From NCBI RefSeq assembly GCF_000487995.2, contig NZ_CP097562.1, positions 1,237,001-1,301,000 on the forward strand: DNA of 64,000 nucleotides, given 5' to 3'. This DNA is from Mucispirillum schaedleri ASF457 (GTDB taxonomy: Bacteria; Chrysiogenota; Deferribacteres; Deferribacterales; Mucispirillaceae). Below, in pieces: positions 6,063 through 64,000 of this stretch. Every line of letters begins with the position of its first letter. Position 1 is the stretch's first letter. The position numbers and the translations under genes were made by a program. Below the pieces are notes generated by a model. It did not search any database and was not told where the DNA came from. It worked only from the letters and a program-made list of their open reading frames with translations.

Positions 6063-7847
6063 GTGGACGAAAGGACACATGCTCGCTATATGTCTGATAT
6101 AGCTTATTTTCTTTCAAAAATGGAAGCAGAGCCTAATTCTGGTTATTTTATACCTATTGCATTAGCATATAATAAACTGGAAAAATATGACGAAACAATA
6201 GCAATGTGTAAAACAGCTGTTGAGCGTTTTCCATCAAACTGTGCTGCTAAAACTTTTCTTGCAGAAGCCTATGTTTATAAAGGTTTTTTTGACCAGGCAC
6301 GAGACCTGCTTTTTGATGTTACAGCAGAAGATGACAATAACTACAAGGCTTTAAAACTGCTTGGTATTATCTGCAAAGAGAAAGGGGATAATACAGAAGC
6401 TCTTAAATATCTAACAGGTGCATTTATCCGCAGCCCAGAAGATGAAGAAGTCCGCAACATGATTGATGAGCTTGGGGGGACATTAAACCCTGTTGAAATA
6501 TATGATGAGCGGATGAAACGACAGTCTCAAAATGCAGCAGACAGCGAAGAGGATGAAGAATTAAAAACATATCAGGAAATAGATAAACGAATTAGAAATG
6601 CAGAAATTATCATGGCAGATTTAGTGTCAGATACATCTATTAATGCTAGAAATTATGATGATGAAGAAGATGATTTTCACTCTGATAACCCTGATGACTA
6701 TATGCCATTAATTACGCAGCATGAAGAAGAGGATGAAAGCCTTTCTGATAATCCTGATGATTTCCTGCCACAAATTACTACATCAGAAGAAAGTGAAGAA
6801 TTAGAACCTGCTGAAACTTTATCAAATGAAGAAGAAAGTCAACGAGATGACTTATTATCAGCATTACAGGAAGAAGATGAGCTTTCTGAAACATCAGAAG
6901 AGAGTGCAGCAGATGATTTGCTTTCAGCTTTATCAAATGGTGATGAAAGCCAAGATGATGATTTATTATCAGCATTACAGGAAGAAGATAAGCTTTCTGA
7001 AACATCAGAAGATGGTGCAGCAGATGATTTGCTGTCAGCTTTATCAAATGATAACGAAAGCCAAGATGATGATTTACTATCAGCATTACAGAAAGAATAC
7101 GAGCTTTCTGAAACATCAGAAGATGGTGCAGCAGATGATTTACTGTCAGCTTTATCAAATGATAACGAAAGCCAAAATGATGACTTACTATCAGCATTAC
7201 AGGAAGAAGATAAGCTTTCTGAAACATCAGAAGATGGTGCAGCAGATGATTTGCTGTCAGCTTTATCAAATGATGATGAAAGCCAAGATGATGATTTATT
7301 ATCAGCTTTGCAGGAAGACAATGAGCCTTATGAAATAAATGAAACAATATCAGAAACAGAAGCAGATACAGAAGAAGCAAAAGATAATGCAGAGTTTTTA
7401 CCAGAAACAGCAGAAGAAAATACAGAAGAAACATTAGAAAATATAGAAGATAGTCAAGATATAATAGATATTCCAGAAGAAAATGCAGATATTAAAGATA
7501 ATACAGATGAAAGCATGCCAGCAGATAATGAATATAATGAACTTCTTAATAAACAGGTGCCGTCATCTATTGAAAATATGACTTATAATGATATGATAGA
7601 CGATGATTTTCAGTATGGCAGAATAGTTGATGAAAGCTATAAGGATAGTGATAATCCACCTATTGATTTAGGAGAATCTGCACCATTTACTCAAGGAGAT
7701 ATTATGGATGAAATATTAAGTGCAGTTGGTATGACTCACGATGATATGGCAGATGATGAAAGAATAGATATATCAGAAAAAGATAGAAAACTTATGCGGC
7801 TTGAAAACTTTTTAGAAAAAGTTCAGCATAATAAGGAAAGCAGATGA
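6063..7847 (+). CDS. TPR protein with long acidic tandem-repeat region
   Basis: Residues about 10-130 form tetratricopeptide-type helices (repeated A..Y...K....A motifs). Everything after about residue 150 is highly acidic and low in complexity, including four 36-residue copies plus a partial one of a DDLLSAL..EDE unit. No signal peptide or membrane segment is seen, so it is probably cytosolic, perhaps a scaffold. A GTG at 6054 is also in frame, but the SD AAGGGG (6049-6054) sits 8 bases before the GTG at 6063, so 6063 is preferred. It lies between aroB and aroQ and overlaps aroQ by four bases. Function unknown. Confidence 0.75.
   Translation: MDERTHARYMSDIAYFLSKMEAEPNSGYFIPIALAYNKLEKYDETIAMCKTAVERFPSNCAAKTFLAEAYVYKGFFDQARDLLFDVTAEDDNNYKALKLLGIICKEKGDNTEALKYLTGAFIRSPEDEEVRNMIDELGGTLNPVEIYDERMKRQSQNAADSEEDEELKTYQEIDKRIRNAEIIMADLVSDTSINARNYDDEEDDFHSDNPDDYMPLITQHEEEDESLSDNPDDFLPQITTSEESEELEPAETLSNEEESQRDDLLSALQEEDELSETSEESAADDLLSALSNGDESQDDDLLSALQEEDKLSETSEDGAADDLLSALSNDNESQDDDLLSALQKEYELSETSEDGAADDLLSALSNDNESQNDDLLSALQEEDKLSETSEDGAADDLLSALSNDDESQDDDLLSALQEDNEPYEINETISETEADTEEAKDNAEFLPETAEENTEETLENIEDSQDIIDIPEENADIKDNTDESMPADNEYNELLNKQVPSSIENMTYNDMIDDDFQYGRIVDESYKDSDNPPIDLGESAPFTQGDIMDEILSAVGMTHDDMADDERIDISEKDRKLMRLENFLEKVQHNKESR
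6846..7308. repeat. 108-bp in-frame tandem repeat inside the TPR gene
   Basis: Four full copies begin at 6846, 6954, 7062 and 7170, with a partial fifth from 7278. Each copy encodes 36 residues containing DDLLSAL twice. Copies differ by a few bases, mostly conservative at the protein level. The unit is a multiple of three, so copy-number change would lengthen or shorten the acidic region without breaking the frame. Confidence 0.9.
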
Positions 7848-61973: not shown

Positions 61974-62000
61974 TAAAAAAGCCTTCCATATAGAAAGGCT
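61974..62000 (-). terminator. Terminator of the small RNA
   Basis: On the minus strand AGCCTTTC-TATAT-GGAAGGCT (8 bp, one G-U pair) is followed by TTTTTT. On the plus strand the hairpin has no T-run, so it does not serve the exonuclease gene. Confidence 0.85.
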
Positions 62001-62061
62001 AAATTTGGTGTGAGTGAATACTCACTTATTACTGTATTCACCACAATATTTAATATGTTAT
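61974..62061 (-). ncRNA. Small RNA upstream of cas9, tracrRNA candidate
   Basis: A minus-strand transcription unit of about 88 bases is bounded by a strong promoter (62068-62096) and a strong terminator (61974-62000), with no ORF between. The RNA would have an unpaired AU-rich 5' part ending ..GUGAAUACAGUAAUAAG, a hairpin GUGAGU-AUUC-ACUCAC, and the terminator hairpin. That order (anti-repeat, nexus stem, terminator) is the layout of a tracrRNA. Identity depends on the CRISPR repeat, which is outside the window. Confidence 0.5.
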
Positions 62062-62067
62062 ATGCTA

Positions 62068-62096
62068 AATATATTTTATTTTAATATTCTTGTCAA
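62068..62096 (-). promoter_or_regulatory. Sigma-70 promoter of the small RNA
   Basis: Minus strand: perfect -35 TTGACA (62096-62091), 17-base spacer, -10 TATATT (62073-62068). Nothing else on this strand needs a promoter here, because cas9 is on the plus strand. Confidence 0.65.
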
Positions 62097-62164
62097 GATA
62101 ATTCATATTGCTTATTTAAAAAATATCAAGTAACATAAATCATATAAATAATATGGAGCGAATT

Positions 62165-64000
62165 ATGGCGGAAAAGAAATTTAAATACCGTTTAGGTCTT
62201 GATTTAGGAACAAACTCTATAGGCTGGTGTATGCTTAGGTTAAATAAGGATAACGAACCAGCTGCAGTTATTAAATCAGGTGTTAGAATATTCCATGATG
62301 GAAGAAATGAAAAAACAAAAGAGCCTTTGGCAGTTGTCCGCAGAAATGCCCGCAGTATTAGAAGAAATCTTGATAGAAAAATATCCCGCAGAAATCATCT
62401 GTTAAATACATTAGTAAAATATTTCCTATTGCCATCAAATGAAATTGAGAGAAAAGCATTAGCAGTTTTAAACCCTTATGAACTAAGAAGCAGGGCAGTA
62501 AATGAAAGATTAGAATTATTTGAGCTTGGAAGATTATTAATGCACCTTTCAAAACGCAGAGGATTTAAAAGCAACAGGAAAGTAGATAAAGAAGACAGCA
62601 GTGGTAAAATTAAGCCAGCTATAGAAAGATTAAAAAATAAAATGCAGGAAACTAATAAAAAAACAGCTGGTGAGTATTTATATTCTCTAATGCAGAATGG
62701 TAAACCAGTCAGAGCCCGCCTTGGAAGAATAGACGGAAGTAATGGATATGAGATATATTTAGACAGGGCTTTAATAGAAGAAGAATATAATCTTATAATG
62801 AATGAACAGAAAAAACATCATAAAGAATTAACTGATGATATTATTAATGAGATATTTAATATAATTTTTTATCAGCGACCATTAAAAAAGCAAATAATAG
62901 GGAAATGCAGTTTAACTGGTGAAGATACTAAACTGAAAAAAGCACATGTATTGGCACAAGATTTTATTTTGCTGCAAAAAGTGCAGGATTTACGAGTATT
63001 TGATGATAATCAGTTAGAATTTAGACCATTAAGCAATGATGAAAAAGACATTATTAAAAGAGAATTGCGAAAGAAAAAAGAAGTATCTTATGAAAATATA
63101 CGGAAATTGTTAAAGAAATATTATGAAAATGTTAAATATGGTATGTTCTCACATGAAACATTATATAAAAAATTACAAGGTAATAAAACAAATGCTTTAA
63201 TGTCAGATAAAGAGATTATAGGTGACAGCTGGTATAGTTTATCGCCAGAAGTTCAGTATGACATAATAGAAGAATTATATTCTGATAAAGATAATGATGA
63301 ATTAAGTAAATTATATTCTGAAAAATTTAACTTAAATGAAAGCCAGATAAATGGCTTATTAAATAAAGCCATTTATAGACTTGACAGTGGATATATCAGG
63401 TATGGAAAAACAGCAGTTACAAACTTAAACAGCATAATGGATAAAGATAATTTAAATTTACACGATGCTAGAGAAGAAGCAGGCTATGAAAAGGAAAATA
63501 AACAAGATGCATCTGAATATCTGGAATATTATGGTAAAGTGCTTCCAGACAGTGTAGTAGACCCACAAATTGAAAATCCTAAAAATGATGAAGAAAGATA
63601 TGGTAAAATTGCAAACCCAACAGTGCATGCAGCTTTAAATCAATTAAGAAAGTTAGTTAATGAATTAATCAAGTTATATGGCAAACCAGAGCAGATAGTT
63701 ATAGAGCTTGCCAGAGATTTAAAAAACAGTAGAAAGGCAAAAGATGTTATTAATAAAAAAATAGCAGAAAATAGAAAACTTAATGAAGAAGTTGATAAAA
63801 CACTGCAGGAGTATTCAGAAAAATATAACACACATATTGTAAAAAATAAATTAAACAGAGATAAAGTTAAATTATGGCGGGAATTAGGGAAAGACCCATT
63901 AGAAAGGAAATGTATATATACTGGAGAGCAAATAAATATAGCAAAATTATTCAGCGACGAAGTGCAGATTGAGCATATTGTGCCATATTCTAAAACATTA
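62165..64000 (+). CDS. cas9: Cas9, N-terminal 612 residues (cut by the window edge)
   Basis: RNA-guided DNA endonuclease of type II CRISPR. RuvC-I LGLDLGTNSIGW with D13, an Arg-rich bridge helix (RRNARSIRRNLDRKISRRNH, about 59-78), FLKSNRK-like GFKSNRK, RuvC-II IVIELARDLK with E514, and the start of HNH (CIYTGEQ, then VQIEHIVPYSKT with the catalytic His at 604). HNH beginning near residue 580 indicates a short, type II-C-sized protein. ATG 62165 has SD GGAG 6 bases upstream; a weak promoter (TTGCTT 62108, TAACAT 62131) precedes it. The frame is open to base 64000. cas1, cas2 and the array, if present, lie beyond. Confidence 0.96.
   Translation, partial: MAEKKFKYRLGLDLGTNSIGWCMLRLNKDNEPAAVIKSGVRIFHDGRNEKTKEPLAVVRRNARSIRRNLDRKISRRNHLLNTLVKYFLLPSNEIERKALAVLNPYELRSRAVNERLELFELGRLLMHLSKRRGFKSNRKVDKEDSSGKIKPAIERLKNKMQETNKKTAGEYLYSLMQNGKPVRARLGRIDGSNGYEIYLDRALIEEEYNLIMNEQKKHHKELTDDIINEIFNIIFYQRPLKKQIIGKCSLTGEDTKLKKAHVLAQDFILLQKVQDLRVFDDNQLEFRPLSNDEKDIIKRELRKKKEVSYENIRKLLKKYYENVKYGMFSHETLYKKLQGNKTNALMSDKEIIGDSWYSLSPEVQYDIIEELYSDKDNDELSKLYSEKFNLNESQINGLLNKAIYRLDSGYIRYGKTAVTNLNSIMDKDNLNLHDAREEAGYEKENKQDASEYLEYYGKVLPDSVVDPQIENPKNDEERYGKIANPTVHAALNQLRKLVNELIKLYGKPEQIVIELARDLKNSRKAKDVINKKIAENRKLNEEVDKTLQEYSEKYNTHIVKNKLNRDKVKLWRELGKDPLERKCIYTGEQINIAKLFSDEVQIEHIVPYSKTL

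Follow-up and report, generated by a model that had tools for sequence, protein, structure and literature searches.

The stretch of DNA analysed here, referred to as the window, covers 64,000 nucleotides (G000:C1:1237001-1301000) of the genome of Mucispirillum, a common mouse-gut symbiont. The genome consists of one 2.35-Mb contig, and the end of the window falls inside a cas9 gene, which continues beyond it. The gene order is cas9-cas1-cas2-array. The encoded Cas9 protein has a length of 1048 aa, and the solved structures closest to it are those of NmeCas9 (6kc8, E=1.8e-65). Cas1 matches the NMENI model. The cas gene set is limited to cas9, cas1, and cas2, without csn2 or cas4, and Cas9 is of the compact (~1050 aa) class, both of which are characteristic of subtype II-C. 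The CRISPR array is located outside the window directly after cas2 (G000:C1:1303661-1304352), with the repeat 4.6 kb from the small RNA gene described below. It comprises 11 copies of a 36-nt repeat (GTTCTGTATTGACCACAATATTTAATATGTTATAAT in crRNA sense) with a spacing of 65-66 nt and is intact, as are cas9, cas1, and cas2. A gene for RNase III is present in the genome. All RuvC and HNH motif residues of Cas9 are kept but one: at the first HNH position, Glu replaces Asp (QIEH). The HNH motif at residues 606-613 reads IEHIVPYS, compared to IDHALPFS in NmeCas9, and the Glu is conserved in 6/6 aligned Mucispirillum Cas9 proteins.

Upstream of cas9, the first-pass annotation had proposed a small RNA gene on the minus strand as a tracrRNA candidate. 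The following features were assigned to this region:

62153..64000, continuing to G000:C1:1302299, plus strand: 5' part of cas9 (TIGR01865, 634 bits; NmeCas9 structure 6kc8)
62068..62096, minus strand: promoter TTGACA - 17 bp - TATATT (from the sequence; TTGACA kept in 7/7 genus genomes with a recovered gene)
62028..62063, minus strand: anti-repeat, 36 nt, complementary to the CRISPR repeat (duplex energy and conservation)
62010..62025, minus strand: nexus hairpin GUGAGU-AUUC-ACUCAC, 3' of the conserved anti-repeat/AAG junction (stem kept in relatives, length variable)
61974..62000, minus strand: intrinsic terminator hairpin and T6 tract, forming the RNA 3' end (compensatory changes at three pairs, seven genomes)
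61974..62061, minus strand: predicted tracrRNA transcript, ~88 nt (from the positions of promoter and terminator)
62009..62045, minus strand: predicted alternative self-hairpin of the free RNA, 62045-62034 pairing with 62021-62014 and 62012-62009 (MFE)

The promoter boxes (TTGACA, 62096-62091; TATATT, 62073-62068) match 11 of the 12 consensus bases, and the predicted transcript start was placed ~7 nt past the -10 box. The terminator stem (62000-61980) consists of 8 pairs, four of them GC, followed by T6. Promoter and terminator (62000-61974) were thus found as the first-pass annotation had described them on the minus strand, as were the GTGAGT/ACTCAC stem (62025-62010) and the lack of an ORF in the small RNA gene, since none of at least 60 aa exists between 61873 and 62153, the start of cas9. 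The distance of 88 bases given for promoter and terminator holds if measured from the -10 box to where the terminator stem ends; up to the start of the stem, it is ~67 nt. When both strands of the 64 kb were scanned for a promoter with at least 11/12 consensus bases and a terminator following within 30-200 nt, the small RNA gene was the single place detected; in 30 dinucleotide shuffles of the window, no such combination of promoter and terminator occurred. No Rfam family was matched at the gathering threshold anywhere in the window. Rfam contains described, curated families only, so that a match supports the identity of a tracrRNA but is not required for it. The tracrRNA was thus recognised by its pairing, its position, and comparative evidence.

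The duplex of repeat and RNA, with a predicted energy of -40.4 kcal/mol, covers the full repeat and is interrupted only at window position 62039, where a G.G mismatch is formed with repeat G11, and at 62031, where a U is bulged. The cofold of repeat and RNA reached -58.6 kcal/mol. With dinucleotide-shuffled RNA or shuffled repeat, the duplex energies were -11.9 ± 2.7 and -13.4 ± 2.9 kcal/mol, respectively. A search for a rival anti-repeat in 16 kb (both strands, both array orientations) revealed, except for the RNA's own reverse strand, no site outside the array better than -18.9 kcal/mol, which is more than 20 kcal/mol behind the tracrRNA anti-repeat. Folding the repeat downstream of cas9 with the RNA had been suggested beforehand as a check, and a better anti-repeat elsewhere in the locus had been named as evidence against the interpretation; the complementarity is present, and the next-best site falls far behind. 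The start of the repeat had also been guessed blind. The guess ATTACTGTATTCACC aligns to the real sequence GTTCTGTATTGACC with 12 matches, 2 mismatches, and one gap and agrees at 12 of the first 14 bases of the repeat. The gene has a cognate anti-repeat outside the array, a linked cas9 and array, its own promoter, and a nexus-like hairpin and terminator 3' of the anti-repeat on the same strand. With the pairing of repeat and RNA as support, the gene is assigned as the tracrRNA gene of a type II-C (Nme-like) CRISPR-Cas9 system with promoter-like repeats (probability about 0.97).

The nearest relatives of the Cas9 protein among named genomes belong to Mucispirillum MAGs (Deferribacterota); they were obtained with an alignment query, a scan of genome contigs with the single protein having given no match. 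The tracrRNA gene was recovered from seven Mucispirillum genomes, the present one and six further, and compared after alignment from anchored sequences. In addition to the promoter TTGACA, the anti-repeat is invariant in all of them from 62061 to 62028 (ATAACATATT through CAGTAAT). The nexus varies in length, with the stem being kept. In the terminator, three pairs are changed on both sides and 97.7% of the cells are paired, resulting in a covariation score of 0.197 compared to 0.092 ± 0.023 after shuffling. The Cas9 identity of the Mucispirillum relatives is 65-68%. In eight II-C loci that are more distant and have arrays (Treponema/Spirochaetales, Alpha- and Gammaproteobacteria, and two viral contigs), the anti-repeat likewise lies on the minus strand upstream of cas9. 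The bulge and the AA[CT]AAG junction are also shared by most of the 42 loci that make up a wider set with recovered anti-repeats. Two Mucispirillum genomes (G006 and G011, 94-96% completeness) gave no Cas9 match, so the CRISPR system is not universal in the genus.

The repeat contains a promoter-like sequence in minus-strand direction, TTGACC-16-TATAAT with a TG before the -10 box (extended -10 TGTTATAAT), as read from the sequence. Read on the minus strand, the array carries an extra, degenerate repeat (AGTCTGTATTGATTATAATA...) at its 5' end, which is changed solely in its first 16 nt and pairs with the RNA more weakly (-33.4 vs -40.4 kcal/mol). Degenerate first repeats are also found in further Mucispirillum arrays. 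Type II-C arrays are reported to have a promoter in each repeat and to acquire spacers at the 3' end, with mutated first repeats, changed mostly in the first 15 nt, in 60% of them (PMC12080349). The putative promoter inside the repeats and the degenerate first, presumably oldest, repeat correspond to this pattern. Promoter and T tract, the covariation of the terminator, the promoter-like sequence within the repeat, and the degenerate 5'-terminal repeat all support transcription of both the RNA and the array from the minus strand. It was also considered that the conserved G.G mismatch at repeat G11 might destroy an antisense promoter derived from the repeat (-35 box TTGACC to TTCACC); the idea was dropped as a general explanation, since in other II-C loci the mismatches lie at different positions, frequently 8-9 of the repeat.

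The strength of pairing itself would also allow a functional tracrRNA made from the plus strand, with the array transcribed in the direction of the cas genes and the minus-strand signals being incidental, since plus-strand RNA and plus-strand array pair nearly as strongly (-37.8 kcal/mol). We regard this as very improbable: promoter and terminator sit on the minus strand, where the terminator stem covaries, whereas a plus-strand RNA would lack a T tract behind the hairpin and have its hairpins 5' of the anti-repeat. A plus-strand array is also at odds with the extended -10 TGTTATAAT and the degenerate 5'-end repeat, both of which point to the minus strand, as in II-C systems (PMC12080349). The existence of an orphan degenerate repeat elsewhere in the genome (about 1472548-1472583) might indicate that the gene is a decayed array remnant, or else a stand-alone regulatory small RNA, and not a working tracrRNA. 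The chance of this appears negligible, however, as promoter, nexus, and terminator are conserved across relatives with a Cas9 just 65-68% identical and cas9, cas1, cas2, and the array are all intact.

A working tracrRNA would be transcribed from the minus strand, away from cas9, by its own sigma-70-type promoter and end at the intrinsic terminator. The array downstream of cas2 would give rise to the crRNAs by minus-strand transcription, which probably starts at promoters in each repeat. From established type II biology, we infer that, in the cell, crRNAs are bound by the anti-repeat through their repeat portion and that RNase III would trim the repeat/anti-repeat duplex. The resulting dual RNA, with a 3-bp lower stem, the bulged U, an upper stem, the nexus, and the terminator hairpin, would then be loaded into Cas9.

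The system resembles the Neisseria meningitidis Nme1Cas9 group in its II-C gene set, the Nme-like Cas9, the NMENI-model Cas1, the layout of anti-repeat, nexus, and terminator, and the promoter-like repeats, which are a general II-C property (PMC12080349). In contrast to this group, the Mucispirillum tracrRNA has a sequence unrelated enough to give no Rfam match at gathering, the duplex is AT-rich and spans the full repeat apart from one G.G mismatch and a bulged U, and the gene is located upstream of cas9 on the opposite strand. The EHCas9 type II-C system is the other close known system; its tracrRNA sequence differs, and its RNA was tested biochemically (PMC10281378), whereas the Mucispirillum RNA is known here from its sequence. 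The CRISPR system of M. schaedleri has been noted before, with the tracrRNA not described in the main text (PMC5285517). The list of guide-RNA parts (repeat, tracrRNA, and Cas9) is now complete for the Nme-like Mucispirillum Cas9.

While the system is an ordinary type II-C system, a less ordinary trait is the predicted self-fold of the free RNA, which would hide the part pairing with the guide. The MFE of the free RNA is -24.1 kcal/mol, compared to -18.2 kcal/mol with the anti-repeat held open, and a similar self-fold is predicted in all seven Mucispirillum genomes. The self-fold ties up both the nexus and the crRNA-proximal part of the anti-repeat and is therefore incompatible with the active form, in which the crRNA is paired and the nexus formed. 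Pairing with the crRNA is favored over the self-fold by ~32 kcal/mol; any effect would therefore be kinetic or protective. The in silico swap of the mismatched G to the base fitting the repeat abolishes the self-fold, and in the present RNA the mismatch does strengthen it (-15.7 vs -9.3). The assumption that mismatched anti-repeat bases serve this purpose was rejected, as the mean gain of 1.3 kcal/mol in 13 clusters was not significant (Wilcoxon P=0.08).

Across 14 repeat clusters (42 loci), the anti-repeat was more complementary to its own nexus than to swapped partners (permutation P about 0.002, downstream piece trimmed to the nexus), in a test that is exploratory, having been devised after the pattern was seen, with boundaries set by motif search and clusters that are not fully independent. 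An earlier version with a 45-nt downstream piece including terminators was noisy (P=0.018). After correction for composition, P values of 0.001-0.004 were obtained (0.002-0.005 without Mucispirillum). Measured against shuffles, the present tracrRNA gave the strongest signal of any individual case (P=0.002), and the signal is absent in some clusters (Treponema, L153, L169). We tentatively propose, as a possibility with the odds against it, that many type II-C tracrRNAs, including the present one, carry a selected second fold, which would act as a latch on the free tracrRNA and be opened by the true crRNA repeat. Such a latch might, for example, protect the RNA or block the capture of cellular RNAs as false crRNAs; non-canonical crRNAs derived from cellular RNAs are known (PMC8224270). 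In the open-licence papers searched, no tracrRNA self-fold was found, which is weak evidence of absence. If the switch between anti-repeat and nexus is real and general, the guide assembly of Cas9 would include a control step that has gone unrecognised and that one would expect standard single-guide designs to circumvent. The general complementarity of anti-repeat and nexus is the part worth following up.

A few further observations concern the array and its surroundings. Spacer 5 (AGGACTACTTCACATCTGCATTACCATTTC; L002:5961-5990, G000:C1:1303960-1303989) codes for DYFTSALPF, and its matches, with up to 27/30 identical positions, fall in the major capsid gene of several Microviridae records, at the common DYFTSALP motif. 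The individual E-values are weak (0.01-0.7), and it is the match position common to the records that makes a Microviridae origin convincing. A Microviridae relative thus seems to have been the source of this spacer. Exact IMG/VR searches with spacers 1, 5, 7, and 9 and a search with a degenerate capsid pattern gave no match. Between cas2 and the array, directly past the last repeat in minus-strand sense, a strong hairpin (AAACCCC...GGGGTTT, L002:5628-5655) could form the end of the cas transcript and also stop transcription from the promoter of the last repeat. The orphan repeat mentioned above has 5 mismatches and is located 170 kb from the array (L086:1547-1582; G000:C1 about 1472547-1472582) beside a terminator-like hairpin. 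It is probably the relic of a second array, as additional arrays occur on other contigs in some relatives. Elsewhere, positions 6706-7371 of the window contain tandem copies of a ~111-bp unit, which are 64-91% alike over 222 nt.
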